NCBI RefSeq assembly: GCF_900114875.1
Contig: NZ_FPKW01000001.1
Span: 496,001 to 560,000, forward strand
Reading direction: 5' to 3'
DNA: 64,000 nt
Origin: Chryseobacterium limigenitum
Lineage (GTDB): Bacteria > Bacteroidota > Bacteroidia > Flavobacteriales > Weeksellaceae
Below are positions 4,952 to 50,666 of this stretch, piece by piece. The notes below the pieces were generated by a model. It was not told the DNA's origin. It saw nothing but the letters and a program-made list of their open reading frames with translations, and searched no databases. The position numbers were made by a program, and so were the translations under genes. The first letter of the stretch is position 1. Each line of letters opens with the position of its first letter.

Positions 4952-4956
4952 TTTTC

Positions 4957-30763: not shown

Positions 30764-33700
30764 ATGAAAAACTTAACCATTTTTGGACTAACGCCTTTTG
30801 AAAAGCCGGATGCTACCCTTGTGCTTGCAATACATCAGGCAGGCGCATTTCCCATACTAAGCTTAGGGCACGAATTAACGACCGCACAGCAAGCGCTGAA
30901 TCAGCTTGAACAGGCAGATATACCATCTTTTGGTATTTGCTTCTCTAATAATAAACTTACATCGCTTCAACTTTCAGAGAAGGTAAAATTTGTGATCCTT
31001 CCGTTTGGAACTACGGTGAATTCGATTTCGGATTTATCTATTATTTACCAGGTAACCAGTTTGAAGGAAGCCAGAGAAGCCGAAAAATCAGGAGCGAAAG
31101 GAATCATCATAAAAGGAAACGAAGCAGGCGGACTTGTCGGCTACGAATCAACTTTTATCTTATTTCAACGTATCATCAAAGAAATTAAATCCATTCCTGT
31201 TTGGGTACAAGGAGGAATCGGACTTCATACTGCGGCGGCGGCAAAAGCATTGGGGGCAACAGGCGTTGTACTGGATAGCCAACTCGCTCTGTTCCCGGAA
31301 AGTTCTGTTCCAAAAGACACGAAAGATCTCTGTTCAAAACTCAATGGAACAGAAACTAAAATCATAGCCAATCATCGCGTATTGGTGAGACCCAACTCGC
31401 CTGCATTACCGGAAAATATAGCCGCTGAAGATCTTAAAAAATATTTCACAGATCTTGATATTACTAAGAGCTACATCCCAATGGGACAGGATATTTCCTT
31501 GGCAACAGACCTTTACGAAGACTTCAAAAATCTAAAGAAAATGGTTTTCGGATTTAAAGAAGCGATGTATGGTCATTTAAGACAGGCAAAAGCTCTTCAG
31601 GTCATTGATCAGGACAATATTTTAGCTAAAGAATTAGGTTTAAAATATCCAATTGCTCAAGGTCCAATGACTCGTGTGAGTGATGTTCCGGCATTCGCCA
31701 ATGCAGTTGCAGAAGCAGGAGCTTTACCATTCGTCGCTTTATCTCTATTAAAAGGTAATGCAGCAAAATCTTTGGTATTTGATACTAAAAATTTAGCTGG
31801 AGAAAAAACCTGGGGTGTGGGAATTTTAGGATTTGCCCCTCAAGAATTAAGAGAAGAACAAACATCCTATATATTAGAAGCTAAACCTCCCGTTGTATTG
31901 ATTGCCGGAGGAAGACCAGCCCAGGCAAAAGTTTTTGAAAAAGCTGGAATTAAAACCTTTTTACACGTTCCTTCTCCTGCCCTTTTAGATATTTTCTTAA
32001 AAGAAGGAGCTACGAATTTCATATTTGAAGGACGCGAATGTGGTGGTCACGTTGGCCCACTTTCAAGTACTGTTCTTTGGGAAAAACAAATCGAACGTAT
32101 TTTAAAAGAAGATCATCCTGAAAACATCAGTGTATTTTTTGCTGGTGGAATTCATAATGATTTTTCAACCGCTTTTATTTCGATCATGGCTGCTCCATTA
32201 GCTGCAAGAGGTGTGAAAGTGGGTGTATTAATCGGGACAGCCTACCTTTACACAAAGGAAGCAGTCTCTTGTTGTGCGATTCAGGAAGAATTCCAGGTAC
32301 AGGCTTTACAGGCAGAAGAAACAGTTTTATTGGAAACCGCTCCAGGACACGAAACGAGATGTTTAGACACTGCATTTGCTCAACATTTTAATAATGAAAA
32401 AGCAAAACTGATCGCAGCAGGAACAGATAAAAAAGAAGTTTGGGAACAACTGGAAAAATTAAACGTAGGCCGTTTAAGAATTGCAGCAAAAGGCGTAGAA
32501 CGACAAGGCGATCAACTGGTTACTATCCCAAAAGAAGAACAACTGGATCTTGGAATGTACATGATCGGACAGGTTGCTACGATGCATGATAAAGTAATTT
32601 CTTTGGATGAACTGCACGAAAATGTAAGTATTAATAATCAAAAATATATTCAGGAAGCTGAATTATCAGAAGCTCCAATATCCGTAGAAAAGCCATTAGA
32701 CATCGCCATTATCGGTATGGAATGTATTTTCCCTGATGCAAAGAATTTAGAAGAATACTGGCGTAATATTATTTTAGGAAAAGACAGTGTAACAGAAGTT
32801 CCGGACGAAAGATGGAATAAAGAACTGTACTATCATCCGGATTCCAACGAATCAGATGTATCTCACTCAAAATGGGGCGGATTTATTCCAAAAATTGATT
32901 TTGATCCTTTAGAATTTGGAATTCCACCACAATCTTTAGCTGCTATTGAACCAACACAACTGCTGACTTTATTGGTTGCAAAACGCGCCATGGAAAATGC
33001 AGGTTATGATGAAAAACATACGAACAGAGAAAATATTTCGGTCATTATAGGTGCCGAAGGTGGTAATGATTTAGCAAACAGCTACAGTTTCAGAGGATTT
33101 TATAAACAGGTTTTCGGTGAACTTCATGAAGAAGTCAAAGAAGCTTTTCCTCACACCACAGAAGATTCTTTCCCCGGAATTTTAGCGAATGTTATTGCTG
33201 GAAGAATTACGAACCGTTTAGATCTTGGTGGAAGAAATTATACGGTAGATGCCGCATGTGCTTCTTCTTTAGCAGCGCTTGAACTGGCTTGTCAGGAATT
33301 GATCTTAAATAAATCAGACATGGTTCTTGCCGGCGGAGCAGATTTACACAACGGCATCAATGATTATTTAATGTTTTCAAGCACTCATGCCCTTTCCAGA
33401 AAAGGAAGATGTGCAACTTTTGACAGCGAAGCAGACGGAATCGCTTTGGGCGAAGGGGTTGCTATTTTAGTATTAAAAAGATATGACGATGCCGTACGTG
33501 ATGGCGACCGTATTTACTCTGTTATTAAAGGTGTTGGCGGTTCGAGTGACGGTAAAGCTTTAGGTCTAACTGCTCCAAGAAAAATCGGGCAGGTTCGTGC
33601 GCTGGAAAGAGCATACACTCAAGCCGGAATCAGTCCTGCATCGGTTGGATTGGTTGAAGCTCACGGTACAGGAACTGTTGTTGGAGATAAAACAGAATTA

Positions 33701-36700
33701 AGTGCATTAACGAATTTATTCAGCCGTTCTGGAGCTTTGCCGGGACAGACGCATTTAGGTTCAGTTAAAACTCAGATCGGACACACAAAATGTGCGGCTG
33801 GATTAGCAGGATTAATTAAAGCTTCATTAGCCGTATATCACGGCGTAAAACCTCCTACCCTTCATCTTCAGAAACCTAACGCTTATTATAATGCTCAAAC
33901 AAGTCCTTTTGCTTTTTATGCAGAAAGCGGATTGTGGAGTGATAAAAACCGTTATGCAGGAATCAGCGCGTTTGGATTTGGAGGAACCAATTTCCATACG
34001 GTTATTGCCAATCATCCTAAGCAAGACGATTCTGCGGTATTGCAATCTTGGCCTTCGGAATTATTTGTATTCCGTGGAGACACTTATGAGGAAGCTAAAA
34101 TTCAATTAAATCAGATTAAATCTTTACTTGAAGTCAATGACAGTATTGCCTTAAAAGATATTGCTTACAGTTTAGCAACTAGTTCAGAAAAGCAGGTTCA
34201 GTTGAGCATTGTTGCCGATACTACTGAACATTTAATGATGAACATCGAATTGGCTTTATCCGGAATTGAAAGCAAGGACACATTCACTGTTAATAAAAAA
34301 GAAGGAAAAGTAGCATTCCTATTCCCAGGACAAGGCAGCCAGCGTATCAATATGGCTCGCGATTTATTTGTTGCTTTCCCGGAAATGAGAAAGCTGATCG
34401 ATTCTTATCCTGAATTAGAAAAAGTTATTTTCCCTTCAAAAACATTTGATGAAGCGACTTTAACACAGCAAAAAGAAACGATAAAAGATACCCGTTTAGC
34501 ACAACCATTATTAGGAATTGTAGATCTTGCCTTAGCTAAACTCCTACAATCTATCGGAATTGTTCCGGATATGTTGGCAGGTCACAGTTATGGTGAACTA
34601 CCGGCATTATGTTTTGCAGGCGTTTTTGAAGAAGAAAAATTGGTTGATTTAAGTATCAAAAGAGCTCAATCCATTTTAGATTCTGTAGAAGGCGGGGATC
34701 CGGGAACGATGATTGCGGTAAGTTCGACAAGAGAAAACTTACAGCCTATTTTAGATACAGTTGAAGGTTGCTATCCCGTAAATTATAACGCTCCGACGCA
34801 ATGCGTGGTCGCAGGAACCACAGACGCCATCAACAAATTGATGGAAATCCTTAAACAGGAACGTATTTCTGCTAAAAAATTAGAAGTTGCCTGTGCATTC
34901 CACAGTCCTTTATTGGCTAAATCTAAAGATTTCTACGAAACCGTTCTTCAAGATATTCCTTTCGAAGAAATGCAGATTCCGGTTTGGTCGAATACAACAG
35001 CAACAACTTATCCAACGGCAGTTTCAGAGATAAAAGAAAGGCTAACGGATCACTTAATACAACCCGTAAGATTTGTAGAAGAACTTCAGGCGATGTACGA
35101 AGATGGCGCAAGAATTTTCATCGAAGTCGGTCCCGGAAAAGTATTGGCAGGATTAGCCAAATCGTGTCTAGATAAAGAGCATCTAACGCTATCCGTAGAA
35201 GATACTAATGGTAATAAATTGACTTACCTCCTTTCTATGCTTGCTCAATATCTAGGAACAGGTCGTAATTTTAATATTGCTAAACTTTTCGATGGCCGTA
35301 ATGTTCAATTAATACAAATTGATCAACCAGAATTATACAAGAAAAATCCTGCTATCTGGCGTGTAAACGGACAGGCAGCTCACCCAACGACTGGTACAAT
35401 GCCTGCCAATGGTGCATTACCAATCATAAATCCACTTCAAATGAACAATTTTACGAATAACCAACCTCCCGTGATTGAAACTCAGTCTAATACTGAACGT
35501 ATGCTTCAGGAATATTTAGACAGCATGAAAATGATGATCCAGGCACAACGAGATGTGATGCTTACTTTCCTTGGACAGAATCCTCAGGTAAGCCCTGCTC
35601 CTGTTTATGTTTCATCAGTTCCGACTCACTCAAACGGTCATGCACCAATCATCTCTGCTCCAAATAATGACGGTGCCGAAAAAATGGTTATCATACCTGT
35701 AAAAGAAGCTCCTACAAAGAATATTAAAACATTATTGCTTCAAGTTGTAAGTGATAAAACAGGCTATCCTCACGAAATGCTGGGCATGGAAATGGATTTG
35801 GAAGCGGATTTAAGTATCGATTCCATTAAAAGAGTTGAAATTATTGGAACACTGAAATCTGAACTAGGTTCTTTTTCTTCAAACAATGCCAATGAAGACA
35901 CCATTATGGAGCAATTGGCTTCAATAAAAACTTTAAATGGTTTGGTTTCTTGGTTAACAGAATATTCCGGAGCTTCAAACACTTCAGAAAAAGCTGTCGT
36001 TACAGAAACTCCAACTTCAACTCCTCAAAATCAGACCGGATTTTCTCTTCAAGAACTCCAAACAGCAATTCTGGATATTGTAAGCGATAAAACAGGATAT
36101 CCGAAAGAAATGTTAGGCTTAGATCTAGATTTGGAAGCTGATTTAAGCATCGATTCCATCAAACGTATGGAAATCATCGGTGAACTTAAAACCAAAATCG
36201 GTTTTGGGGAAGATCTAGAACAGGCGGATGATCTAATGGAAAAATTAGCCGCTATCAAAACATTGAACGGATTAGCTTCATGGATCAATGAGATGAGTGG
36301 AAATAACACTCCTGAACCTATTCAGAATTTATTATCCCGTCTTCGATTTGATTTAACGCCAACTGATGTTTCTTTAATCGAAAATAGCGAAATCCTGCAA
36401 GGAAAACGTTTTGCGATCACTCAAGACAACAGCAACCAAACCTTAGCCATCAAAAATGCCCTTGAAAAGCATGGAGCAATCGCTGAGTTGGTGGATGCTG
36501 ACAAAGACCTTACCAATTTTGACGGATTAATTATTCTTGACTTATTTTCATCTCCCGTAAAGCAAAATATTATTGATCATGTTGATTTAATTAAAAGATT
36601 AGACCTTGATAAGGCTCAATGGATTTATTTAATTTCAGATATTCCCGCACACGTTCAGGAACTGACGGATACGACTCTCTTGCGTCATTACAAAGGACAT

Positions 36701-37753
36701 CCGGGACTTTTCAAAAGTTTAGCAAGAGAATTTGAAAATACGAATTGCAGATTGATCAGTTTAAATTCTCCTCAGCAAGTAGATCAAATTGCTGATATTA
36801 TTTTAAAAGAAATACTGACAACCGATAAACCGTCTGAAGTTATTTACAAAAATGATCAAAGACATAAAGTGGATATCATTCCATCACCATTATCAACAGG
36901 ACTGAGTGAGGCACAAATTCAATTAGATAAAGATTCTGTGGTTTTGGTTCTTGGAGGCGCGCAGGGAATTACTTCCGAACTAGCAAAACACATGTCACAG
37001 GCTTATCCTTGTACTTATATTTTGGTGGGAAGATCTGCAGATCCGAGAAATCAGGCAATACATAAAGAATTAGAAGTCATGAAAACCAAAGAAGAAATAA
37101 GAGCTTATCTTATCAAATCCGGAACATTTACTTCACCTTCTGAAATCGAAAAAGAAACAATAAAAGTTTTCAAAAACAATCAAATCCTGCGCACAATCCG
37201 TGATATGGAGCAAATGGGAAATACGATTATTTATCAATCATTAGATCTTTGCGATGAAAATGGTTTATCTGAATTAATCAACAGTATTTATGAAAAATAC
37301 AACCGCTTAGACGGGGTAATTCATGGGGCAGGTCTTTTGGAAGATAAATTATTCAAACAAAAAACAACAAGCTCATTCGGAAGAGTTTTCGATACTAAAG
37401 TAAAACCGCTTCGTGTATTGGCAGAAAAACTGCGCACGGATTGTCAGTTTGTAGTACTATTCTCAAGCATCGCTTCGGTTTACGGAAATAAAGGTCAGAC
37501 CGATTACGCTGCAGCAAACTCTGTGTTGGATGATTACGCAAATGCTTTAAACAAAAAACTAAAAGGAAAAGTAATTTCCATCAACTGGGGTCCCTGGAAA
37601 GGTGCCGGAATGGTTTCATCAACCCTGGAAACAGAATATGAAAGAAGAGGCATTTCTTTAATTCCATTGGAACAAGGCAAGGAAATTTTCCTGAATGAAA
37701 TAAAATACGGAACTGAAAGTCAGGTATTAATCATGTCCGGAAGTAACTGGTAA
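30764..37753 (+). CDS. PUFA-synthase-like iterative polyketide synthase, NPD-NPD-KS-AT-ACP-ACP-KR
   Basis: The 2329-aa multienzyme has, in order: an NPD/nitronate-monooxygenase-fold domain (1-240), a second NPD fold (265-615) like the PfaD-type FMN enoyl reductase, a ketosynthase (643-1085; Cys near 831 in DAACASS, EAHGTGT, QIGHTKCAAG), a malonyl-type acyltransferase (1181-1472; GQGSQ, GHSYGE, CAFHSP), two carrier domains (1655-1730 and 1768-1840; both ADLSIDSIKR, the PUFA-synthase signature) and a ketoreductase (2057-2329; GGAQGIT, SSIASVYGNKGQTDYAAAN). Only the second NPD keeps the catalytic-type His (GGHVG); the first reads GGLVG. With the DH of the next protein, a full reductive cycle is possible. 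The product is a long lipid-like chain by inference. Confidence 0.93.
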   Translation: MKNLTIFGLTPFEKPDATLVLAIHQAGAFPILSLGHELTTAQQALNQLEQADIPSFGICFSNNKLTSLQLSEKVKFVILPFGTTVNSISDLSIIYQVTSLKEAREAEKSGAKGIIIKGNEAGGLVGYESTFILFQRIIKEIKSIPVWVQGGIGLHTAAAAKALGATGVVLDSQLALFPESSVPKDTKDLCSKLNGTETKIIANHRVLVRPNSPALPENIAAEDLKKYFTDLDITKSYIPMGQDISLATDLYEDFKNLKKMVFGFKEAMYGHLRQAKALQVIDQDNILAKELGLKYPIAQGPMTRVSDVPAFANAVAEAGALPFVALSLLKGNAAKSLVFDTKNLAGEKTWGVGILGFAPQELREEQTSYILEAKPPVVLIAGGRPAQAKVFEKAGIKTFLHVPSPALLDIFLKEGATNFIFEGRECGGHVGPLSSTVLWEKQIERILKEDHPENISVFFAGGIHNDFSTAFISIMAAPLAARGVKVGVLIGTAYLYTKEAVSCCAIQEEFQVQALQAEETVLLETAPGHETRCLDTAFAQHFNNEKAKLIAAGTDKKEVWEQLEKLNVGRLRIAAKGVERQGDQLVTIPKEEQLDLGMYMIGQVATMHDKVISLDELHENVSINNQKYIQEAELSEAPISVEKPLDIAIIGMECIFPDAKNLEEYWRNIILGKDSVTEVPDERWNKELYYHPDSNESDVSHSKWGGFIPKIDFDPLEFGIPPQSLAAIEPTQLLTLLVAKRAMENAGYDEKHTNRENISVIIGAEGGNDLANSYSFRGFYKQVFGELHEEVKEAFPHTTEDSFPGILANVIAGRITNRLDLGGRNYTVDAACASSLAALELACQELILNKSDMVLAGGADLHNGINDYLMFSSTHALSRKGRCATFDSEADGIALGEGVAILVLKRYDDAVRDGDRIYSVIKGVGGSSDGKALGLTAPRKIGQVRALERAYTQAGISPASVGLVEAHGTGTVVGDKTELSALTNLFSRSGALPGQTHLGSVKTQIGHTKCAAGLAGLIKASLAVYHGVKPPTLHLQKPNAYYNAQTSPFAFYAESGLWSDKNRYAGISAFGFGGTNFHTVIANHPKQDDSAVLQSWPSELFVFRGDTYEEAKIQLNQIKSLLEVNDSIALKDIAYSLATSSEKQVQLSIVADTTEHLMMNIELALSGIESKDTFTVNKKEGKVAFLFPGQGSQRINMARDLFVAFPEMRKLIDSYPELEKVIFPSKTFDEATLTQQKETIKDTRLAQPLLGIVDLALAKLLQSIGIVPDMLAGHSYGELPALCFAGVFEEEKLVDLSIKRAQSILDSVEGGDPGTMIAVSSTRENLQPILDTVEGCYPVNYNAPTQCVVAGTTDAINKLMEILKQERISAKKLEVACAFHSPLLAKSKDFYETVLQDIPFEEMQIPVWSNTTATTYPTAVSEIKERLTDHLIQPVRFVEELQAMYEDGARIFIEVGPGKVLAGLAKSCLDKEHLTLSVEDTNGNKLTYLLSMLAQYLGTGRNFNIAKLFDGRNVQLIQIDQPELYKKNPAIWRVNGQAAHPTTGTMPANGALPIINPLQMNNFTNNQPPVIETQSNTERMLQEYLDSMKMMIQAQRDVMLTFLGQNPQVSPAPVYVSSVPTHSNGHAPIISAPNNDGAEKMVIIPVKEAPTKNIKTLLLQVVSDKTGYPHEMLGMEMDLEADLSIDSIKRVEIIGTLKSELGSFSSNNANEDTIMEQLASIKTLNGLVSWLTEYSGASNTSEKAVVTETPTSTPQNQTGFSLQELQTAILDIVSDKTGYPKEMLGLDLDLEADLSIDSIKRMEIIGELKTKIGFGEDLEQADDLMEKLAAIKTLNGLASWINEMSGNNTPEPIQNLLSRLRFDLTPTDVSLIENSEILQGKRFAITQDNSNQTLAIKNALEKHGAIAELVDADKDLTNFDGLIILDLFSSPVKQNIIDHVDLIKRLDLDKAQWIYLISDIPAHVQELTDTTLLRHYKGHPGLFKSLAREFENTNCRLISLNSPQQVDQIADIILKEILTTDKPSEVIYKNDQRHKVDIIPSPLSTGLSEAQIQLDKDSVVLVLGGAQGITSELAKHMSQAYPCTYILVGRSADPRNQAIHKELEVMKTKEEIRAYLIKSGTFTSPSEIEKETIKVFKNNQILRTIRDMEQMGNTIIYQSLDLCDENGLSELINSIYEKYNRLDGVIHGAGLLEDKLFKQKTTSSFGRVFDTKVKPLRVLAEKLRTDCQFVVLFSSIASVYGNKGQTDYAAANSVLDDYANALNKKLKGKVISINWGPWKGAGMVSSTLETEYERRGISLIPLEQGKEIFLNEIKYGTESQVLIMSGSNW

Positions 37754-37771
37754 ACGCTGTAGAAAATAAGT

Positions 37772-40700
37772 ATGAAAAAAACAGATGTTGCTGTAATTGG
37801 TTTGTCTTGCGTCTTTCCGGGGGCGCAGGACGCCGACACTTTTTGGCAGAATATTGTCAATAAAGTAGATTCTACCCAACTGGCTCCAGCCGACCGAATT
37901 GATCCTGTTCATTTTAGCAATACCACAAATCCGGTTGACCGTTTTTATTGCCAGCGTGGCGGATTTATTTCTGATTATGAATTCGATCCCACCGCTTTCG
38001 GTATTTTACCTTTGGCGGTTGAAGGAACAGAACCCGATCATTTATTAACGCTTGATCTGGTTCAAAAAGCCTTAGACGATGCAGGAATATTTAAGAAAAA
38101 CATTTCGCTCGAAAAAACTGGAATCATCATTGGAAAAGGAAACTACACCGGACCGGGCGCAACTCGTGCCATCGAAATTGTTAGAACCGGAGAGCAAATT
38201 TCCTCTTTATTAAAGGAATTGCTACCCGAAGTTTCTTCCGCCGATATTGAAAAAGTAAAGCATGCTTTTCAGGAAAGAAAAGGACGTTTTGCAGCCGATA
38301 CCGCAATGGGATTAATTCCTAATCTTGTTGCATCTTTAGTTGCTAACCGATTCAATTTGGGTGGAGTTGCATTTACCGTAGATGCCGCTTGTGCAAGTGC
38401 CTTAATTGCAGTAGATCACGCGGTACAGGAGCTTCAAAGAGGAAGATCTGATATCATGATTGCAGGTGGAGTTCATACCGGACAAAACGCTGCTTTCTGG
38501 AGTATTTTCGCACAGTTAGGAGCATTATCTCATCAACAAAAAATTAAGCCTTTCAGCAATGATGCAGATGGTTTATTAATTGGTGAAGGTTGCGGTTTTG
38601 TGGTCTTAAAAAGATTGGAGGATGCCATTCGTGATCAGGATAAAATCTATGCCGTTATCAAAGGAATCGGTGTAAGCAGTGATGGAAACGGAACAAGCGT
38701 AATGAGTCCTTCTGTAAAAGGTCAGTTAAAAGCTTTACAACAAGCTTGGGCAAATGCAGATTTAGACGAAAACCAAATCGGTTATATTGAGGCTCACGGA
38801 ACAGGAACTCCGCTTGGCGACAAGACAGAATTGCAGACTTTAGCTCAGTTTTTCGGAAAAGAAGAAAATGCTAAAATCGCAGGAATCGGTTCTGTAAAAT
38901 CGAATATCGGTCACGCCATGCCCGCTGCAGGAATTGCAGGGTTGATAAAAACTTGTCTCGCGCTTCATAACGATACATTACCACCGACTTTATATTGCGA
39001 AAATCCGACTTCGGAGATGCAGAATACCAGATTCGAACCTGTACAGGAGGCAAAAAACTGGTCAAAAACAGGGTTGCCAAAAGTAGCAGCAGTCAATGCT
39101 TTCGGATTCGGAGGAATTAATGCACATGTGGTTTTGGAAGGGTATGATATGCCTAAAAAAGAAAAAGTTCTCATCTTAGCCAGACCAACACACGAAGAAT
39201 TATTATCTGCTTTACAAAATAACGACACGACTTTAGGAGAAGGAGATTATCGTATTGCCCTATTCGATCCGACTCCTGCAAGAATTGAAAAAGCCATTAA
39301 AATCGTTGCTAAAAATAATCCTTGGCGCAACAAACAGGATATTTGGTACACCAACGCTCCTCTGTTGCAGAATGGAGAAAAAGTAGCCTTCGTTTTTCCT
39401 GGATTAGACGGTTTGGCGAAAGGTGAAGTAGAAAGTGTAAGCCGTTATTTCAACATCATCGCACCGATTGAAACGGAAGGTGAAGGATTATTAAATGATG
39501 CTTTAAATATTTTCAACAATTGCAGTATTCTTGATAATTCATTAAAAAAATTAGGAATTATACCGGATATGAATGCAGGTCACAGCTTAGGTGAATGGTT
39601 GGCAGGCTACTCTTCTGAATTAGCAGAAGTAAATTCTGTAAAAGCTTTAATTGATGTTTTAAATCCTGAAACTTTTGAATTAAAAGATTCAAAATTCATC
39701 GCCATCGGAGCCGGAATTGAAACCATAAAACCTATTATAGAAGAAATTTCAAACGTTTATATCTCGAATGACAATTGCCCGAATCAGGTGATTCTTTGCG
39801 GAAGTAATTTGGCTTTGGATGAATTGGTTCCTGTATTAAAATCAAAACAGATATTTCATCAAATTTTGCCGTTCCAGTCTGGTTTTCACTCCCCTTTTAT
39901 CGCCGATAAACTGGATGTGATTTTAGCCGGAATGGAAAAAGCACAATTTCAAAAAACAAAAATCCCATTGTGGTCTGCAACGACATTGGAGCCTTATCCA
40001 TCTGATCAGGATGCCATTAGAAAACTGAGTGCGGAACATCTTGTTGAACCCGTTCGTTTCCGTGAACTGACAGATAAATTGTATGAAGAAGACGCAAGAT
40101 TTTTCATACAAGTCGGAACAGGCGGATTGATTGGATTTATTGATGATACATTGAAAGGAAAAGCATTCAGTACAATTGCGTCAAGCGTCCCTACTCGTTC
40201 TGCACTGGCTCAATTTCAACGTGTGGTTGCTGCGCTATTCGTGGAAGGAAAAGTGGTTGCGTTGGACTTTTTGGATATTCAAGCCTCATCAAGAAAACCA
40301 TCCGGAAAAAATATGAAACTGGAATTAGGTTCACCAATTGTGCGTGATTTTGCAGCCATTAAAACTTTAGCGAAATCTATCAATACTTCAAAGCAAAAAA
40401 TGACTGCAGCAGTTGCAAAATCAGGCCATCCGCTTGTTCAGGCATTTCAGGAGAACATTTCGGATATGATTAAAATGCAGGAGGAAGTTTTAACGTTATT
40501 CCAAGACCGTCCGAAAGTTTCGATTCCGAATGTGGTTATACCAAAAGTCCAGGCTCCGATAAGCAAGAATTTTGAGAAAACATTATACGTGACATTGGAA
40601 ACCCACCCTTACCTCATCGACCACAGCTTATTGAGACAACCGAAAGGCTGGCATGAAGTTGCCGATATGGAACCCGTGATTCCGATGACCATGATTTTTG

Positions 40701-42007
40701 AACAACTGGCGGAAATCGCACAACAGGAAATTGAGGGAAGCCAAATTCATAAAATCATGAATGTAAGCGTTTTTCAATGGATGAATGTGGCAAAACCTTT
40801 CGAAAAAACAGTAAAAGGAGAATGGAAATCCACCAATCACGCTTATTTAGATATTGAAAATTTTGCGAATGCAGAGGTTTTATTGACCTCAACTACAAGA
40901 CCGAATCCAACCTTCAATCTTTCCATCGGAGAAATATTACCCATCGAAAGAACTCCGGAAGAAGTGTATGATATGCATATGTTTCACGGTGAAAAATATC
41001 AGGGAATTACGGAGATTTCAAAAGTAGGAACGAAAGGAATTATCGGAAAAATCAAAGGAAACGGAGGGAAAGGTTCATTGCTAGATAACGCAGGTCAATT
41101 ATTTGGACTTTGGTTGCAATTAACGTTAACAAAAGACAGAATTGCCTTCCCGGTAAAAATCAAAGACATTGAATTTTTCGGAGATCTACACGATCAGGAC
41201 GGCATGTTTGAATGTACCTGCAGTCTGACTGAAATGAATGACGAATTTGCAATCGGAGATATTCTTTTAACCAAAAACGGAAAAGTATGGTGCAAAATTT
41301 CAGGGTGGCAAAACCGCCGTCTGGAAATCGATGCGGCGCTGTGGAATGTTTCGATGTCGCCTTTGCACAACCGTCTTTCTGAGGAAATTGCTCCCGAAGT
41401 ATTTTTCTTCCATCAGGCGTATTCAAGAGTGGCGTCGTGGGATTTTATCCTGAAACGTTATTTCAATCAAACCGAAAAACAGCATCATCAAACATTACTT
41501 CCAAACAAAAGAAAAAGCTATATGGTAAGCCGTGTTGCGGTGAAAGATGCGGTGAGAAATCTTCTTAAAAAGGAAAGAAATCACGCTTGCTTCCCCATCA
41601 CTTTTGAAGTTGGTAAAGATGAGGTCGGAAAACCTTATTTAATCGGAGATTCAACAAAAGACATTCATATTTCTTTAGCACATAAAGGAAAAGATGCCGT
41701 CGGAATTGCACAAACCGGAAAATCAGTCGGGATCGACATGGAAATCATTGAAGAACGAAGCTCAGGATTCTACGATTTGGTCTTTACAGATAACGAATTA
41801 GTATTATTAAAAGACAAAAATCAGGCAGAATGGACCACTCGTTTTTGGGTAGCAAAAGAAGCGTACGGAAAGTTTTTGGGAACAGGATTGAAAGGAAATC
41901 CAAAAAACTTCGAAGTAGAGAAAATAACAGACGATTCTTTATGGATCAGTCAAACAGAAATCAAAACAATTAAACATAAAAATTATATCATAGGATGGAC
42001 ACTATAA
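37772..42007 (+). CDS. Polyketide synthase, KS-AT-DH with fused phosphopantetheinyl transferase
   Basis: The 1411-aa partner protein has a ketosynthase (5-456; Cys near 207 in DAACASA, EAHGTGT, NIGHAMPAAG), an acyltransferase (about 534-810; GHSLGEWLAG, GFHSPF) whose usual GQGSQ entry motif is degenerate (GLDGL), a dehydratase hot-dog region (about 935-1190; THPYLIDHS with His near 943, later DNAGQLFG), and a C-terminal 4'-phosphopantetheinyl transferase (about 1200-1411; GIDME near 1319, WVAKEAYGKFLG near 1359). The fused transferase should activate the carrier domains of its own pathway. It begins 18 bp after the first synthase and overlaps the acyl carrier protein gene by 13 bp. Confidence 0.93.
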   Translation: MKKTDVAVIGLSCVFPGAQDADTFWQNIVNKVDSTQLAPADRIDPVHFSNTTNPVDRFYCQRGGFISDYEFDPTAFGILPLAVEGTEPDHLLTLDLVQKALDDAGIFKKNISLEKTGIIIGKGNYTGPGATRAIEIVRTGEQISSLLKELLPEVSSADIEKVKHAFQERKGRFAADTAMGLIPNLVASLVANRFNLGGVAFTVDAACASALIAVDHAVQELQRGRSDIMIAGGVHTGQNAAFWSIFAQLGALSHQQKIKPFSNDADGLLIGEGCGFVVLKRLEDAIRDQDKIYAVIKGIGVSSDGNGTSVMSPSVKGQLKALQQAWANADLDENQIGYIEAHGTGTPLGDKTELQTLAQFFGKEENAKIAGIGSVKSNIGHAMPAAGIAGLIKTCLALHNDTLPPTLYCENPTSEMQNTRFEPVQEAKNWSKTGLPKVAAVNAFGFGGINAHVVLEGYDMPKKEKVLILARPTHEELLSALQNNDTTLGEGDYRIALFDPTPARIEKAIKIVAKNNPWRNKQDIWYTNAPLLQNGEKVAFVFPGLDGLAKGEVESVSRYFNIIAPIETEGEGLLNDALNIFNNCSILDNSLKKLGIIPDMNAGHSLGEWLAGYSSELAEVNSVKALIDVLNPETFELKDSKFIAIGAGIETIKPIIEEISNVYISNDNCPNQVILCGSNLALDELVPVLKSKQIFHQILPFQSGFHSPFIADKLDVILAGMEKAQFQKTKIPLWSATTLEPYPSDQDAIRKLSAEHLVEPVRFRELTDKLYEEDARFFIQVGTGGLIGFIDDTLKGKAFSTIASSVPTRSALAQFQRVVAALFVEGKVVALDFLDIQASSRKPSGKNMKLELGSPIVRDFAAIKTLAKSINTSKQKMTAAVAKSGHPLVQAFQENISDMIKMQEEVLTLFQDRPKVSIPNVVIPKVQAPISKNFEKTLYVTLETHPYLIDHSLLRQPKGWHEVADMEPVIPMTMIFEQLAEIAQQEIEGSQIHKIMNVSVFQWMNVAKPFEKTVKGEWKSTNHAYLDIENFANAEVLLTSTTRPNPTFNLSIGEILPIERTPEEVYDMHMFHGEKYQGITEISKVGTKGIIGKIKGNGGKGSLLDNAGQLFGLWLQLTLTKDRIAFPVKIKDIEFFGDLHDQDGMFECTCSLTEMNDEFAIGDILLTKNGKVWCKISGWQNRRLEIDAALWNVSMSPLHNRLSEEIAPEVFFFHQAYSRVASWDFILKRYFNQTEKQHHQTLLPNKRKSYMVSRVAVKDAVRNLLKKERNHACFPITFEVGKDEVGKPYLIGDSTKDIHISLAHKGKDAVGIAQTGKSVGIDMEIIEERSSGFYDLVFTDNELVLLKDKNQAEWTTRFWVAKEAYGKFLGTGLKGNPKNFEVEKITDDSLWISQTEIKTIKHKNYIIGWTL

Positions 42008-42294
42008 ACACTACAGAAAAATTAAATCACGAAGAATTATTCACTCTTTTAAAAGGTTTCATCACGGAAGTTATCGGCGAAGAATTTGTAGAAGAAATGG
42101 ACATTACTCCTGAAAGTTCTTTCACAAAAGATCTGGAAATGGACAGCATCGAAATCGTCTCTTTTTCCGAGAAAATTAAAGCGCATTTTGGGGAACAAAT
42201 CGATTTCACGGGATGGCTGTCTTCAATGGATCTGGACGAATTGATCAACCTTGATTTAAGTATGATTATCAATTACATCTACGAATGCCAATAA
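41995..42294 (+). CDS. Stand-alone acyl carrier protein
   Basis: The 99-aa protein has an acyl-carrier fold with the phosphopantetheine-accepting Ser51 in DLEMDSIEIV, and typical helices II and III. Unlike the carrier domains fused in the synthase (DSIKR), it belongs to the DSIE type, so it may carry a starter unit or the finished chain to the hydrolase or acyltransferases. It overlaps both neighbours (13 bp and 10 bp), showing translational coupling. Confidence 0.88.
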   Translation: MDTINTTEKLNHEELFTLLKGFITEVIGEEFVEEMDITPESSFTKDLEMDSIEIVSFSEKIKAHFGEQIDFTGWLSSMDLDELINLDLSMIINYIYECQ

Positions 42295-43076
42295 TCTCTG
42301 TAAACGATAAAAAGGTTCATATTCAGGAACTCAACAAAGGGGCTGAACAAACTGTGGTAATGATCCACGGTATGTTCAGCAACCTTTCCATTTATTATTT
42401 TAATATTGCTCCGATTCTGGCAAAACATTTCCATGTTGTGATGTTTGATTTAAAAAGTCACGGCATGAGCGAACGTTTTACAGACGGTTACGATTTAGAA
42501 AATATGTCTTCCGATGTCTTGGTTTTGATGGATGCTTTAAATATAAAAAAGGCACATCTTGTCGGCTATAGTTTTGGAGGGTTGATTGCTTTAAAAACAG
42601 CTTTAAAAGATCCCAATCGCATTAAGCAATTGGTGGTTATTGAAGCCCCGGATCCTCAGGACGAAAAAGCCAGAGGTATTATCGAAGAATACAGCAAAGA
42701 GTTTCTGGAACATTATGTCGCCAATTTTACCGATACCACAAAAGTACAGATGGGAAAAAGGCAGATGGAAAAAAATCATCGTATGTATGAGTTTTTGTTT
42801 AATCAGACCACGATTAAAGCGGATATGATTAAAGAAAAACATTTCCTGAGCGAAGTCGATTTTTCTGAATTAAAACCTTCAACATTGCTAATGTATGGCG
42901 CAAATTCCAACTGCAGACCTACAGGAGAATGGCTGAATGAACAAATCGGACAAGCTGATTTAGAATTAATTCCAGGAGATCACAACATCCCGATTCAGGA
43001 ACCTGTTTTGATTGCAGAAACTATTGCCCATTTTTTATCAAAATCATTAAAAACCTTATCACAAAACCATGGCTAA
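42285..43076 (+). CDS. Alpha/beta hydrolase, candidate chain-releasing thioesterase
   Basis: The 263-aa protein is a cytosolic alpha/beta hydrolase with HGMFSNLSIYYF (28-39), FDLKSHGMSER (54-64), nucleophile Ser96 in GYSFGG and a catalytic His in GDHNIP near 238. There is no signal peptide. No thioesterase domain is present in the synthases, so this enzyme is the best candidate to release the chain or hydrolyse an intermediate (inference from position). It overlaps the ACP and the glycosyltransferase genes. Confidence 0.87.
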   Translation: MPIISVNDKKVHIQELNKGAEQTVVMIHGMFSNLSIYYFNIAPILAKHFHVVMFDLKSHGMSERFTDGYDLENMSSDVLVLMDALNIKKAHLVGYSFGGLIALKTALKDPNRIKQLVVIEAPDPQDEKARGIIEEYSKEFLEHYVANFTDTTKVQMGKRQMEKNHRMYEFLFNQTTIKADMIKEKHFLSEVDFSELKPSTLLMYGANSNCRPTGEWLNEQIGQADLELIPGDHNIPIQEPVLIAETIAHFLSKSLKTLSQNHG

Positions 43077-45465
43077 ATTTGTATTTGTAGTTCCACCATT
43101 GACAGGTCATGTGAACCCTACACTAAGTATCGGTGCCACTCTTCTGGAAAGAGGACATCAGGTTGCATGGATAAGTCTTGACCAAAATTTAACCTATAAA
43201 CTTCCGGAAGGCGGAGAATTATTATTGATTCAATACGACCAGACCGACGAAGAAAAAAGAGACAGCGAAAACTATCTCGATATCATTTCTAAAAAAGTTG
43301 TCTACGGAATCGACAGCATCAAATTTCTTTACGAAGATGTTTTGATTCCTCTAAACAGATATTGCTATAATGGAATTATTCCTTTGTTAAAAGAATATCA
43401 ACCCGATTTGGTGATTGGCGATCATCAGTTATTTGCGGCTTCTATTGCTGCAAAAAAATTACGTTTGCCTTATGCTACAACAGTTACTGCTCCCGCTGCC
43501 ATCAAAATTATGAGTGAACTTCCAAAAGTTCATGAGTGGGAAGAAAAGCAGATTGTTGCATTACAGCAGGAATTAGGCGTTGAAGAAAATCATGCATTAG
43601 ATTGTTCCGATTTATTGACATTGGTTTTAACGTCACAATATTTCTTTGGAGAAATGGATCTAACTTCCAACTACCAATTCACAGGGCCGGTTCTTACAGA
43701 GCGTCGTATTTCCAGTGAATTTGACTGGGAAAAATTCAATGCTAATTCAAGAAAAAAGATTTTGGTAAGCATCGGAACGACTTTCGATCACGAGCATAAA
43801 AAAGCATTTTTCCAAAAAGTGGTTGATGCTTTTAAAGATGAAAATTTAACCGTAGTTGTCGTTTCAGACCCTCAACTTTTCGAGCAATGGCCGGAAAATT
43901 TTATGGTGTATCAGCAAGTTCCTCAGTTGGATTTGTTACCTCATCTTGACGGTGTTGTTTCTCACGGCGGTCACAATACGGTTTCCGAAGCATTATCAAA
44001 TGGTTTGCCTTTGGTCGTGATTCCGATTGCTTATGATCAATCGCATGTTGCGGGGCGTGTTGTGCGTACAGGAGCGGGTGAACGTCTTAATTTTAACAGA
44101 TTTAAAGCGCATCATTTAAACGAAGCCGTACAAAATATTTTAACCAATCCTGAATATAAAAAAGCTGCAGAAATTGTCCGCGAATCTTTTGCTGAAGCCG
44201 GAGGAAGCGCAACAGCAGCCAATTTACTGGAAAATGCCATCACAAACTCAACTATGGAAAAACCGAAGTCAAAATTTTTATTTGTTATTCCTCCGTTTTT
44301 TGGACATATCAGTCCGACATTGAGCGTTGGAGCGAGTTTAATTGCGCGTGGTCATGAAGTAAAATGGTTCGGAATCACGCCTTTAGACAACAAACATATT
44401 CCGGAAGGCGGAAGTTATTTTTACCCTGAGCAAGATTTAATTCCATATCAGGATGAAATTGCCAGGATTTTAAAAAGACAGGATGATGGCCCCGCCTGTT
44501 CAGGACCTGAAGTGATGAAACTTGCTTTGGAAGAAACCTATGTCCCTTTCGCTAAAATGATGATGCCCGGACTGGAAACACTTACAAAAGAATGGCGACC
44601 CGATGTTATCGTCAACGACTGTATCACTTTCGGAGGAGCGCTTTTTGCTCATAAAAACAATATTCCGTGTGTGACGACAACACCAGTTCCACCCGATGTG
44701 ATGGGCGATACCGAAAACAGTGCCCAAAAAATATTTGAATGGCAACAGAATTTAATTAAAGAACTTCAAAAAGAAGTTGGAATCGATGATGACGGAATTT
44801 TCATTCATTCCCATCATTTGAATTTAATATTTACCTCTCAGAAATTTGCTGATTTTGATGAGGTTCCAACGCATATGAAATTTGTAGGACCTGTAAAAGG
44901 TCGTCCGAATCCTGCGCCTTTTGATTGGGATAAATTGAACGCTTCGACAACACCAAAAATATTTGTTTCATTAGGAACGCTTTTAGTAGATATTCGAAAA
45001 GCATTTTTCGAAAAAGTAATTGCGGCTTTTGCAGATCAGCCTGTAACCGTAATTGCCGCTACTCCACCGGAAATTTTTGAAGAATGGCCTTCGAACTTTA
45101 TTGTGAGCAGTTTTGTTCCGCAATCTGCCTTAATGCCACACATGGATGCCGTGATTTGTCATGGTGGTTTTAATACCGTGAATGATACATTTACCAACGG
45201 ATTACCGATGTTGATCACGCCAATTGCTTACGATCATTTTCATATTGCAAAACTAATTGAAAAAGCAGGTTGCGGAATCAGTATCAGATATAAAAGATTA
45301 CGTGTAGATGCGCTTCGCCAGACTGTTTTTGAATTATTGGAAAATCCGACTTACAGAAATGCTGCAAAAGAAGTTCAATCGAGCTTGATCAATGCAGGCG
45401 GAAACGACCGTGCGGTAGAATTACTGGAGAATTTTATAGAACAATCAACCTTAGTTCCTGTGTAA
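43069..45465 (+). CDS. Fused twin UDP-glycosyltransferase (MGT/GT1 family)
   Basis: The 798-aa protein consists of two complete, diverged GT1-family glycosyltransferases of about 398 residues each. Both begin with a P-P-[LF]-[TF]-G-H-[VI]-x-P-T-L-S motif, and each carries a sugar-nucleotide-binding signature, HGGHNTVSEALSNGLP (first) and HGGFNTVNDTFTNGLP (second). The second half begins with an in-frame ATG at 44254 (residue 396), suggesting fusion of two adjacent genes through stop-codon loss. Relatives glycosylate macrolides and carotenoids (CrtX-like). Two halves could add two sugars in turn. It follows the hydrolase with an 8-bp overlap. Confidence 0.9.
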   Translation: MAKFVFVVPPLTGHVNPTLSIGATLLERGHQVAWISLDQNLTYKLPEGGELLLIQYDQTDEEKRDSENYLDIISKKVVYGIDSIKFLYEDVLIPLNRYCYNGIIPLLKEYQPDLVIGDHQLFAASIAAKKLRLPYATTVTAPAAIKIMSELPKVHEWEEKQIVALQQELGVEENHALDCSDLLTLVLTSQYFFGEMDLTSNYQFTGPVLTERRISSEFDWEKFNANSRKKILVSIGTTFDHEHKKAFFQKVVDAFKDENLTVVVVSDPQLFEQWPENFMVYQQVPQLDLLPHLDGVVSHGGHNTVSEALSNGLPLVVIPIAYDQSHVAGRVVRTGAGERLNFNRFKAHHLNEAVQNILTNPEYKKAAEIVRESFAEAGGSATAANLLENAITNSTMEKPKSKFLFVIPPFFGHISPTLSVGASLIARGHEVKWFGITPLDNKHIPEGGSYFYPEQDLIPYQDEIARILKRQDDGPACSGPEVMKLALEETYVPFAKMMMPGLETLTKEWRPDVIVNDCITFGGALFAHKNNIPCVTTTPVPPDVMGDTENSAQKIFEWQQNLIKELQKEVGIDDDGIFIHSHHLNLIFTSQKFADFDEVPTHMKFVGPVKGRPNPAPFDWDKLNASTTPKIFVSLGTLLVDIRKAFFEKVIAAFADQPVTVIAATPPEIFEEWPSNFIVSSFVPQSALMPHMDAVICHGGFNTVNDTFTNGLPMLITPIAYDHFHIAKLIEKAGCGISIRYKRLRVDALRQTVFELLENPTYRNAAKEVQSSLINAGGNDRAVELLENFIEQSTLVPV

Positions 45466-45469
45466 GCTT

Positions 45470-46738
45470 ATGAAAAGAAGATTGTTATTTGGAGAACGAA
45501 TGTTGCTTGGGGACGGAACAGAACCTTTCAACACCGTTATTCCGTTCAGATTAAAGGGTACATTTAGCCTGAAAGACATTCAGCATGCTCTGAATCAGCT
45601 TCAGGTAAAACATCCTTGGTTAAAGGCTGTAATTAAACTTGATGAAAAAAATATTCCCTGGTTTGAGGTTTCAGAAAAAGCAAAAATCCCGATCCGAATC
45701 CTAGCCCAAAAAGGCGAAAATGATTGGTTCGAAGAATCTAAAAATGAGTGGTACAAAATGTTTAATTACAAAGAACAGCCACTCATCAGATTTGTATGGA
45801 TCAAAGGAGACGAAACTTCAGATATGATGTTTGTATTCCACCATTGCTTATGTGATGGTGGTTCTGCCTTGTCTCTATTGGATGAGTTTTTGAAATTACT
45901 GGATAATCCGACTTATGATATTGGGTTGGAAAATCCAATTTTAGGCATTCAGGATGTTGTTCCGAGTAAAATTTTATCTAATCGCGGACAGCAATTCAAG
46001 GCAAAAGTGATCGGAAGATTGGCTGCTACAGTGATCAAATATATTCCTGTCAGTAAAAAATCCATTGACCGACAAAGCGATTATTTAATTAATTGGAAAT
46101 TCGATCAAGAAACAAGTAAGGAATTAATTTCTTATTGTAAATCTCAAAAAGTTACTGTTAATACGTTTTTATGCGCAACAGTTTTAAAAGCATTTGAAAA
46201 AATCAGGAAAGAAAAAGCCTTCAATAAAGTTTCGTGTCCGGTTGATATCAGGCGTTTTGCCAATCAGATCAAGTCGGATCATATTTTCGCTTTTGGATTA
46301 ATGATTGTGGTTTCTTTAAACAAAAAATTCGGTTTTGAAGAAAATTTAAAGCTGATGCAGGAAGCTGTCGAGAAAAAAACATCAAAGCTTAATCCGTACA
46401 TCACAATGATGGTGATGGAATCTGCTCACGATGCATTAACAAACTTCACTAAATTATTAAAAAACGGAAAATCTTCCAACGATTGCATGTTTTCTAATTT
46501 GGGACGTATTCAGATCGCTCATCAATACAAAGATTTTTCATTGGAAAATATTTTCAGTCCGTCCGTGATTGGGCCTTTGGGAAACACAACGACAATAGTT
46601 ACCTCAACTTTCCGAGGGGAAATGAATTTTTCTTTCATGGGAAGTGAGGGTTATTTGCCTTATTCGGACGCTTTGGCAATTCGTGATGAGGTGACTAAGA
46701 TGGTTAAACAACAAATAGAATCTTTAGCCGTATCATGA
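45470..46738 (+). CDS. Condensation-fold acyltransferase (PapA/WES-like), copy 1
   Basis: The 422-aa protein has the condensation/CoA-acyltransferase motif HHCLCDG (124-130; HHxxxDG) and a second-half DIRRFA followed by DHIFAFGL, as in PapA and condensation-type O-acyltransferases. Such enzymes esterify hydroxyl groups of glycolipids or link acyl chains from carrier proteins or CoA. It begins 4 bp after the glycosyltransferase stop, and its stop overlaps the next start (ATGATG). The likely task is acylating the sugar or lipid made by the upstream enzymes. Confidence 0.85.
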   Translation: MKRRLLFGERMLLGDGTEPFNTVIPFRLKGTFSLKDIQHALNQLQVKHPWLKAVIKLDEKNIPWFEVSEKAKIPIRILAQKGENDWFEESKNEWYKMFNYKEQPLIRFVWIKGDETSDMMFVFHHCLCDGGSALSLLDEFLKLLDNPTYDIGLENPILGIQDVVPSKILSNRGQQFKAKVIGRLAATVIKYIPVSKKSIDRQSDYLINWKFDQETSKELISYCKSQKVTVNTFLCATVLKAFEKIRKEKAFNKVSCPVDIRRFANQIKSDHIFAFGLMIVVSLNKKFGFEENLKLMQEAVEKKTSKLNPYITMMVMESAHDALTNFTKLLKNGKSSNDCMFSNLGRIQIAHQYKDFSLENIFSPSVIGPLGNTTTIVTSTFRGEMNFSFMGSEGYLPYSDALAIRDEVTKMVKQQIESLAVS

Positions 46739-47982
46739 TGAAACGAAAACTAATGTTGGTAGAAAGAATCATGTATGTTGATTCTGAAACTCCTCTAAAT
46801 TTGGTATTTACTGCAAAAATCAACGGTGAAATCTCGGAAGATAGTTTTAAAATTGCCTTAGATAAAATTCAGCGAAAACATCCTTTGTTAAGAGTTTCAA
46901 TTGATCATAAAAGTGCAAAATATCCTTTTTTTATTGAAGAAAAAGAGATTGCGCCCATTCCACTTCGAATTGTAGAAAGAAAAACGGATCAAGACTGGCT
47001 TTCGGAATCAGAAAATGAATGGTACAGACTTTTTGAAGACAACAAAAAACCAATGGCTCAGCTCGTTTGGGTAAAAGGTGAAAATACATCCGAAATTCTT
47101 TGGGTAATACCTCACTGTCTTTGTGACGGAACAACGGGCGTTACATTGATTCGCGAACTTTTAGCTTTATTAGACAATCCTTCCATTGAATTAAATTCTT
47201 ACGAAAGCTTTGATTCTGTTAATGATTTTCTGCCTACCGATTTTAATTTAAAAAAGAAGAAACGAAAAGCCAAATTTTATTTAATGATGGCAAAACTGTT
47301 CTTTTTAATTCAATCGAAAAGCAAAAACAGGAATCACGGAAAAAATTATGCACTTCACCGAAAACTGGATGCCATTGTTTCAAAACAAATAGTTGAAAAA
47401 TGCAAAGCGAATAAAATTTCTGTTCATGCTTTGTTGTGTTCGGCTTTTATGCAGGCTTTTAAAGAGGTTCAGGGTAAAAATGCGAAAGGAAAAGTAATCA
47501 GTCCGGTGGATGTTCGCCATTTTATTCCGGAAATTAAGCAGGATCATATTTTTGCGTTTGCTCCGACTGTTGAACTGTCATTAAAAAAAGGAAATCAGGA
47601 TATATTGGAAAACTCCAGACACATCAAAACAGAACTTCTTGAAAAAATTGAAAAGATGGATGCAAGAGAACTGTTGTGGATGGGCGAAAACATGCATCCC
47701 GTTGTTGAGCGTATGATTTCTATGCTAAAATCAAGCAAAGGCGGGCATGATATTACCTTATCCAACATGGGAAGAATTGATATTCCGAATGCGTATAAAA
47801 ATTTTAAAGTTGAAACCATTTTCAGTCCGACGGTTGCTTTCCCTTGGCTGAACTCAAACACTTTGGTCGCAACAACTTATAATCAGGAAATGGATTTCAC
47901 CTTCATGTCTAATGAGAATTTTCTTCCAAAAGAAGAAGCGATAAAAATTAAAGATAAAGCTATTGAACTGTTGACTTCATGA
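46735..47982 (+). CDS. Condensation-fold acyltransferase (PapA/WES-like), copy 2
   Basis: The 415-aa paralogue of the preceding protein shares ENEWYRLF, the DVRHFIPEIKQDHIFAFAP block and the C-terminal SNMGRI and NIFSP/TIFSP elements. The motif reads PHCLCDG (126-132): the first His of HHxxxDG is Pro, while the catalytic second His127 and Asp131 remain. It is probably active with altered donor or acceptor geometry. It overlaps the genes on both sides by 4 bp. Confidence 0.84.
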   Translation: MMKRKLMLVERIMYVDSETPLNLVFTAKINGEISEDSFKIALDKIQRKHPLLRVSIDHKSAKYPFFIEEKEIAPIPLRIVERKTDQDWLSESENEWYRLFEDNKKPMAQLVWVKGENTSEILWVIPHCLCDGTTGVTLIRELLALLDNPSIELNSYESFDSVNDFLPTDFNLKKKKRKAKFYLMMAKLFFLIQSKSKNRNHGKNYALHRKLDAIVSKQIVEKCKANKISVHALLCSAFMQAFKEVQGKNAKGKVISPVDVRHFIPEIKQDHIFAFAPTVELSLKKGNQDILENSRHIKTELLEKIEKMDARELLWMGENMHPVVERMISMLKSSKGGHDITLSNMGRIDIPNAYKNFKVETIFSPTVAFPWLNSNTLVATTYNQEMDFTFMSNENFLPKEEAIKIKDKAIELLTS

Positions 47983-48560
47983 AATTTAAAATAAAAAAGA
48001 CCCAACCGAAACCTATCAAAAAAACCACGCTGAATCGCTTTCTCAGGAAGCGGATGATCATTTATGTTCTTCCAAATATGTTTTTTAATTTTATAATTGC
48101 TTATGCGAGTTTTAATGAATTGGGATACACTCATTTTTTTGCAGGAACGCAATGTCTGGCTCGGCTCACTTTACCAATGGCTATTTTTTTACCCGTTGTT
48201 CTTACGATAGACATCATTAAAAGAGTAACTGATGCCGCTAGTCAAAATGCTATTGAATTCGCAGTGGATGATCAACTTAATTTAAAAAAAATGATAGCCA
48301 AACTAAGTATTTTGCATGGTATAATTACCGGATCATTGGTATTGTCAGGTTTGCTTTTTGCACAACTGATATTATCTGAATATTATAAGCTCGATGCTGC
48401 TGCGATGGCAATTGTTGTTGGGATTTTGGCTGGTTTACTCTCTATTCTGTTCACCTATCTTCCAATTATAAAGTTAAAAAGACATTTGTATAAACCTATG
48501 CATATTATTTCTTCTGATATGACTGAAAAAAATTTTAACCCAATAAAAAAACCGCTCTAA
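47979..48560 (+). CDS. Four-helix membrane protein of the polyketide operon
   Basis: The 193-aa protein has a basic N-terminus (KFKIKKTQPKPIKK) and four hydrophobic helices (about 29-50, 63-82, 112-135, 140-165). I recognise no family. Its 4-bp overlap with the second acyltransferase makes it part of the same operon, so it may anchor the enzymes or help export the lipid product. No MmpL-like or ABC transporter is in the cluster. Its stop lies inside the hairpin that terminates the convergent peptide gene. Confidence 0.78.
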   Translation: MKFKIKKTQPKPIKKTTLNRFLRKRMIIYVLPNMFFNFIIAYASFNELGYTHFFAGTQCLARLTLPMAIFLPVVLTIDIIKRVTDAASQNAIEFAVDDQLNLKKMIAKLSILHGIITGSLVLSGLLFAQLILSEYYKLDAAAMAIVVGILAGLLSILFTYLPIIKLKRHLYKPMHIISSDMTEKNFNPIKKPL

Positions 48561-48570
48561 AAAAGAGCGG
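48544..48570 (-). terminator. Terminator of the glycine-rich peptide gene
   Basis: CCGCTCT (48552-48558) pairs with AGAGCGG (48564-48570). On the minus strand it is followed by seven T. It overlaps the last codons of the membrane-protein gene on +. Confidence 0.82.
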
Positions 48571-48593
48571 CATACCTTATAATACAGACTATC

Positions 48594-50602: not shown

Positions 50603-50666
50603 CACTCTTTGATTCTGAATTCTAATTTAGATTGAATAAGCCATCAATCGTTATTACTATTTACTT

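Follow-up and report, generated by a model that had tools for sequence, protein, structure and literature searches.

A conserved Type N synthase operon with glycosyltransferase and acyltransferase genes in Chryseobacterium limigenitum, predicted to direct a decorated long-chain lipid

Described relatives and layout of the operon

Type N synthases of the Pfa superfamily were described by Shulse and Allen in 2011 (PMC3098273) from Chryseobacterium gleum and Chitinophaga pinensis, and their product is given as unknown in the accessible part of that paper. The same part describes Type F (Hgl) as lacking a DH, Types A and B as having separate pfaD and pfaE, and Type P, to which Beijerinckia indica ATCC 9039 belongs, as making membrane or cyst lipids (PMC3098273). 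A paper on heterocyte glycolipids, likewise available in part, relates the hgl islands to PUFA synthases. The window, i.e. the whole stretch of 64,000 nucleotides that was analysed, carries a synthase of this superfamily within an operon of eight genes, the features of which are as follows.

30764-48560, + strand: eight-gene operon (eight same-strand ORFs)
30764..37753, + strand: PKS1, 2329 aa, NPD1-NPD2(FabK-like ER)-KS1-AT1-ACP-ACP-KR (Pfam, NCBIfam, Foldseek, residue alignment)
30764..31531, + strand: NPD1, first NPD-like barrel of PKS1 (NMO match from residue 68; structure model)
31622..32650, + strand: NPD2, FabK-like enoyl reductase of PKS1 (TIGR03151, residues 287-629, below the curated cut-off; Foldseek FabK)
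32699..33868, + strand: KS1 in PKS1 (PF00109/PF02801, residues 646-1035)
34316..35173, + strand: AT1 in PKS1 (PF00698, residues 1185-1470)
36938..37600, + strand: KR in PKS1 (PF08659, residues 2059-2279)
37772..42007, + strand: PKS2, 1411 aa, KS2-AT2-DH-PPTase (Pfam, structure model, residue alignment)
37781..38995, + strand: KS2 in PKS2, intact in the window (PF00109/PF02801)
40574..41341 (limits approximate), + strand: DH, double hot dog, in PKS2 (AlphaFold model of residues 900-1245, Foldseek)
41723..41971, + strand: PPTase domain in PKS2 with ISLAH (P1b'-type) motif (PF01648, residues 1318-1400)
41995..42294, + strand: free ACP, 99 aa (PF00550)
42285..43076, + strand: alpha/beta hydrolase, 263 aa, probable thioesterase or release enzyme (PF00561, PF00975)
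43069..45465, + strand: fused pair of GT1/MGT-family glycosyltransferases (GTs), 798 aa (TIGR01426, two stretches)
45470..46738, + strand: PapA/condensation-like acyltransferase 1, 422 aa, HHxxxD (PF00668; 8s6l structure match)
46735..47982, + strand: PapA/condensation-like acyltransferase 2, 415 aa, PHxxxD (PF00668, PF16911; 8s6l structure match)
47979..48560, + strand: small hydrophobic, probable membrane protein, 193 aa (no Pfam or NCBIfam match)

Surface glycolipids of mycobacteria are made by Pks, PapA and GT1 systems in which a PKS chain receives GT1-type sugars and is esterified by PapA proteins; the operon would be alike in its working but differs in its synthase family.

By the description of Shulse and Allen (PMC3098273) the core of the operon is Type N. 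The genera agree (27 Chryseobacterium and two Chitinophaga loci among the best 80 of 212), the ISLAH of PKS2 corresponds to the PPTase motif P1b' (hShxH) given in the accessible part of that paper, and the synthase is the sole Pfa-like one of its genome, PKS1 and PKS2 being the only frames longer than 430 aa among 12 PF00109 matches in the host. The initial annotation had known of no described product for this gene set, and a search of the mostly open-access literature likewise located none; the gene set itself was not wholly unknown, its core having been catalogued as Type N in 2011. The word 'glycosyl' occurs nowhere in the main text of Shulse and Allen 2011 (PMC3098273), and the tailoring set, the GT fusion, the decaying second KS and the exchange between lineages were not found described in the literature, parts of which were accessible. 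The locus is an orphan, well-bounded, conserved and mobile lipid-type cluster, in which the core is known and the tailored operon is a new form of it.

The core is labelled hglE-KS/T1PKS by antiSMASH in regions published for Chryseobacterium herbae and Sphingobacterium thalpophilum, according to the accessible parts of both papers. Region 2.2 of C. herbae ('hglE-KS, T1PKS, terpene', 495,527-554,653), listed there without a known relative, is very probably the C. herbae copy of the operon, since the coordinates of the latter (contig NODE_2, 512548-536774) fall within it; a similar hglE-KS/T1PKS region is reported in the S. thalpophilum genome paper. The operon is also carried by Sphingobacterium detergens, a species reported elsewhere, according to a citing paper, to produce a glycolipid surfactant.

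Comparison of PKS1 with described synthases indicated that the PUFA and Hgl systems, named earlier for comparison, do share related modules, but that the nearest relative of characterised type is Type P, which is homologous across all of PKS1. A protein encoded on plasmid pBIND02 of B. indica ATCC 9039, with the order NPD-NPD-KS-AT-ACP-KR and including the tandem NPD region, aligned with PKS1 from residue 5 (36% over 2151 aa), and the separate DH-PPTase protein of that locus was a homologue of the final part of PKS2 (26% over 531 aa). The Beijerinckia locus differs in that type III-PKS-like genes sit between its two proteins, its DH-PPTase protein lacks KS-AT, and its annotation shows neither a free ACP nor PapA-like genes; no type III PKS was found among the eight genes or the adjacent annotated ORFs of the window. 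Hgl and Pfa systems share relatives of the KS, AT, ACP, KR and ER and tandem ACPs with the operon, and the Hgl product is a glycolipid, but the cyanobacterial plasmid relatives covered only part of PKS1 at 28-31% identity. Moreover, Type F has no DH and an hglC KS-CLF-AT protein whereas the operon has a DH, and Pfa Types A and D have two DH and 4-6 ACPs whereas the operon has one modelled double-hot-dog DH and two ADLSIDSIKR motifs. On sequence, the Type P synthase (phenolic lipid, Azotobacter Ars) serves better as a model for the operon than the PUFA or Hgl systems do.

Domains and catalytic residues of the encoded enzymes

All eight ORFs were in place on the + strand, their junctions ranging from an 18-bp gap to a 13-bp overlap as first described, with spacings of +18, -13, -10, -8, +4, -4 and -4 bp in order from the ORF coordinates. 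Pfam and NCBIfam agreed on the KS, AT, carrier, KR, PPTase, hydrolase, twin GT and condensation/PapA domains that had been read from the sequence. No match to the Bacteroidetes-type promoter TTTG-N16-22-TAnnTTTG was found at the operon, and the whole window contained two matches, fewer than the chance mean of 6.06. The sole terminator candidate at the 3' end of the operon (48571-48551) is on the - strand, where this strong hairpin with T-run (window 48551-48571) stands behind, and serves, a reverse ORF of 90 aa (48594-48866), overlapping the end of the membrane protein gene.

PKS1 scored above the NCBIfam PfaA cut-off (1056.8 against 1010.1 bits) and PKS2 below it (447.1 bits). The carrier motif ADLSIDSIKR was found twice in PKS1. 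An NPD enoyl-reductase module had been listed among the parts and is present, but not as a gene of its own: it forms the first ~630 residues of PKS1 as two tandem NPD-like barrels. The best Foldseek match of NPD2 was FabK (E 9.8e-17). Residues were compared in an 81-locus set, consisting of the window and the best 80 of 212 relatives from a scan of named genomes, and the row counts below refer to it. The GGH histidine of NPD2 was kept in 79/79 full-length PKS1 rows, while NPD1 had no His at the equivalent place, either in the window or in 76/79 rows, and is, because this active-site-like His is absent, probably non-catalytic. The catalytic residues of KS1, AT1, ACP1, ACP2 and KR were identical in all 79 full-length rows.

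The DH proposed for PKS2 gave no Pfam match at E<=0.001 and was recovered by structure, the AlphaFold model (mean pLDDT 81.4) matching solved PKS dehydratases (best E 3.2e-14). Its His951, Asp1105 and Gln1109, the PPTase His, Asp and Glu, and the AT2 catalytic residues were identical in all 81 loci, and Ser51 of the free ACP was present in 74/74 rows. The Cys of KS2 was found in 77/81 loci, its first His in 76/81 and its second His in 79/81.

The hydrolase Ser and His were present in 78/79 rows, the single miss being a contig cut. The GT protein matched TIGR01426 in two stretches (384.3 bits against a cut-off of 260), Pfam and NCBIfam resolved it into two UDPGT/EryCIII-like units, and His/Asp/His was kept in 77/77 rows for each unit. 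Acyltransferase 1 matched PF00668, with a PapA_C match below the Pfam cut-off, and carried HHxxxD in 69/69 rows; the second His and the Asp of acyltransferase 2 were kept in 70/70 rows and the first position was Pro (PHxxxD) in 67/70. Motif rows and the Pfam Condensation match thus placed the PapA features, HHxxxD and the condensation fold, in the acyltransferases. The best PDB match of both was 8s6l, labelled phthiocerol dimycocerosyl transferase (E 8.9e-14 for the first, 1.1e-21 for the second), an entry for which a literature search located no paper. The small membrane protein belonged to no Pfam or NCBIfam family. Most catalytic residues examined across the operon enzymes were invariant.

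Conservation, variants and transfer between lineages

The best 80 of 212 relatives were picked by an Apibacter-first alignment, which makes the sample uneven; besides the Chryseobacterium and Chitinophaga loci given above they comprised 22 Pedobacter, six Mucilaginibacter, six Sphingobacterium, four Apibacter, four Dyadobacter, two Flavobacterium and seven others. In this set (window and best 80 of 212) the order PKS1-PKS2-ACP-hydrolase-glycosyltransferase(s) was kept in 79/81 loci, the exceptions being L109, whose contig ends in the hydrolase, and Olivibacter L140. At least one PapA-like gene was present in 72/81 loci and two or more in 71/81, and nine lacked them, two of those being cut or exceptional; these PapL counts come from the 81-locus comparison, 8/16 congeneric stretches having had both PapL queries at one place with the longest match kept. 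The membrane protein was found in 65/81 loci, with none recognised in Dyadobacter. The claim that the tailoring genes belong with the synthases as one biosynthetic unit with glycosylation and acyl-transfer genes was borne out by this order, and conservation in relatives is taken to exclude a chance origin of the arrangement.

The same counts bear on the view that the proteins form a polyunsaturated fatty acid synthase with unrelated neighbours. The PfaA score of PKS1 speaks for it, but there is one DH against the two of Types A and D (PMC3098273, accessible part), the ER is fused in cis in PKS1, and tailoring genes stand beside the synthase in 79/81 loci, so that this explanation, marked down for its DH count and its gene neighbourhood, is highly improbable.

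Across 78 loci, 43 families were represented by the gene adjoining PKS1 upstream; the 28 Chryseobacterium loci had 12 of them at this place. As flank families vary and the operon order is constant, the unit is bounded by the eight genes and has moved. The operon was not intact in every carrier: loci L115 and L137 had a PKS1 of less than full length, and PapL1 was split in L088 and L091.

Two kinds of variant were observed in the tailoring genes. In loci L071-L077 (Apibacter, Dysgonomonas, a Prevotella bin and a Flavobacteriaceae bin) a MATE gene lies upstream, the GTs are two separate genes and a PMT-like gene replaces the PapA-like genes; PMT-like and MATE genes occurred in 7/81 loci. Across the 81 loci the GT was one fused protein in 35 and a gene pair at the same place in 42, with four left without a score, the form being scored by ORF count as tblastn matches spanned two ORFs in some Pedobacter and other pairs. 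A single change on the tree sufficed for the GT fusion, and likewise for the PMT versus PapA switch. Two Streptomyces plasmids (NZ_CP108735.1 and NZ_CP108492.1) place the core across phyla, with the order PKS1-PKS2-ACP-hydrolase-GT (40% identity for PKS1, 35% for PKS2), but have a single GT of 431 aa followed by a SAM methyltransferase and no adjacent PapA-like genes. IS elements lie close by these versions (L151 13971-28942; L155 2006-16980). Since Streptomyces keeps a GT without PapA and with a methyltransferase, the GT is part of the core and acylation exchangeable. Together with the PMT/MATE variants this favours a core of synthase plus glycosylation on which the decoration can be exchanged, and we conclude that the core consists of synthase, carrier, hydrolase and GT, with acylation, methylation and the PMT-like step as alternatives.

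The KS2 losses were confined to five of the seven PMT-type loci, four of Apibacter and one of the Flavobacteriaceae bin; KS2 was degenerate in four of these and missing from the protein in the fifth (A. adventoris), was retained in the Dysgonomonas and Prevotella PMT-type loci, and was intact in the 74 non-PMT loci. KS2 would therefore be dispensable for chain building in the PMT-type branch, a pattern that fits a tailoring role without proving one.

PKS2 was found in 20/35 congeners and in 0/23 other genomes of the same draw. In the order draw it occurred in 27/395 genomes (24 from the genus, the window's own among them, two from a second genus within the family and one from another family), and in the phylum draw in 4/395; a GT query of the class draw detected the operon in 2/395, so that it is a minority trait in all three draws. 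The PKS2 tree (FastTree, local supports) showed that the Sphingobacterium and some Flavobacterium copies group with Chryseobacterium and not with Pedobacter or apart, Flavobacterium seoulense being nested in the window's subclade. This placement suggests horizontal transfer of the operon between lineages.

Proposed product and alternatives

We consider it somewhat probable that the operon makes a glycosylated, acylated long-chain lipid by means of an iterative Pfa-superfamily (Type N) type I fatty-acid/polyketide synthase, and in our judgement its location in the cell envelope has a little under an even chance. The lipid reading is favoured because the gene order is constant with varying flanks, active sites are kept, and DH and ER folds were found; because Type P is homologous over PKS1 and, in its DH-PPTase, to the end of PKS2; and because the active-site residues survive in each half of the fused GT, whose position is taken by an unfused pair in other loci. 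In the proposed pathway the PPTase of PKS2 would prime the ACPs, and AT1 and KS1 of PKS1 would elongate with malonyl units a chain whose length we infer to be long. Full reduction would fall to the KR, the PKS2 DH and the FabK-like ER, on the pattern of the related phenolic-lipid (Ars) synthase, and KS2-AT2 may add or modify the last unit, leaving an oxygen function. The chain would then pass to the free ACP and be released by the hydrolase, after which the two glycosyltransferases would attach two sugars and the two PapA-like enzymes would esterify hydroxyls of the sugar or the chain. The membrane protein, or the MATE gene in the variant operon, may aid movement of the product to the envelope.

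Weighing against the lipid reading, the homology of the GT units to the macrolide GT family makes a secreted glycosylated polyketide possible. Such a product, acylated as well and either antibiotic-like or a surfactant, is rather unlikely. The GT units fall in the macrolide GT subfamily and resemble macrolide and calicheamicin GT structures, the patchy spread (20/35 congeners) and the exchange between lineages resemble specialised metabolism, and the S. thalpophilum paper, in its accessible part, speculates that the hglE-KS/T1PKS region is antifungal. However, the synthase has a single, fully reducing set of iterative Pfa-type modules and no modular extension, the homologous Type P yields membrane or cyst lipids (PMC3098273, accessible part), and no dedicated ABC- or MFS-type exporter is conserved in the operon.

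The Olivibacter synthase (L140 14697-18583), with PKS1, PKS2 and ACP and without tailoring genes, the Dyadobacter loci with no recognised membrane protein, and the broken operons also weigh against the lipid reading; the Olivibacter genes adjoin those of a CMAS methyltransferase, an MFS transporter and a fatty acid desaturase. A non-glycosylated lipid, with the GT-family proteins serving otherwise, would accommodate a synthase lacking GTs but is very improbable given that donor- and acceptor-side His/Asp are kept in both units (77/77 rows) and that the Streptomyces version also has a GT.

Decoration of carotenoids by the GTs and acyltransferases was considered since a phytoene synthase gene (21147-21983) and an amine-oxidoreductase-type, phytoene-desaturase-like gene (21986-23458), both on the - strand, lie ~8.8 kb upstream in the window, and the antiSMASH region of C. 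herbae, as reported in the accessible part, unites hglE-KS, T1PKS and terpene. Against this, phytoene synthase (E<=1e-30) was detected in 14 of the 20 operon-bearing congeners and none was found in six; it lay on the same contig in eight of the 14, at least 150 kb from the operon, and on another contig in six, and 14/15 congeners without the operon have it. Its position and presence across congeners thus disfavour carotenoid decoration, which is extremely improbable.

To return to the glycosylated, acylated lipid, we propose more tentatively a diglycosyl, multiply acylated long-chain lipid class widespread in Bacteroidota, functionally like the phenolic glycolipids and acyl-trehaloses of mycobacteria and made by an operon passed on horizontally, with the second KS and the decoration genes swapped by niche (PapA-type acylation versus PMT/MATE-type glycosylation). 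If so, a conserved, chemically orphan lipid would be common to many cultivable Bacteroidota of soil, plants and hosts, the constant core with exchangeable tailoring would offer a direct genetic handle, since a mass shift can be predicted for every tailoring gene, and Type N, open since 2011, would gain a testable product class.

Elsewhere in the window, a LytTR regulator and several hybrid sensor kinases with multiple domains are encoded at 3476-8565 and 49907-52874.
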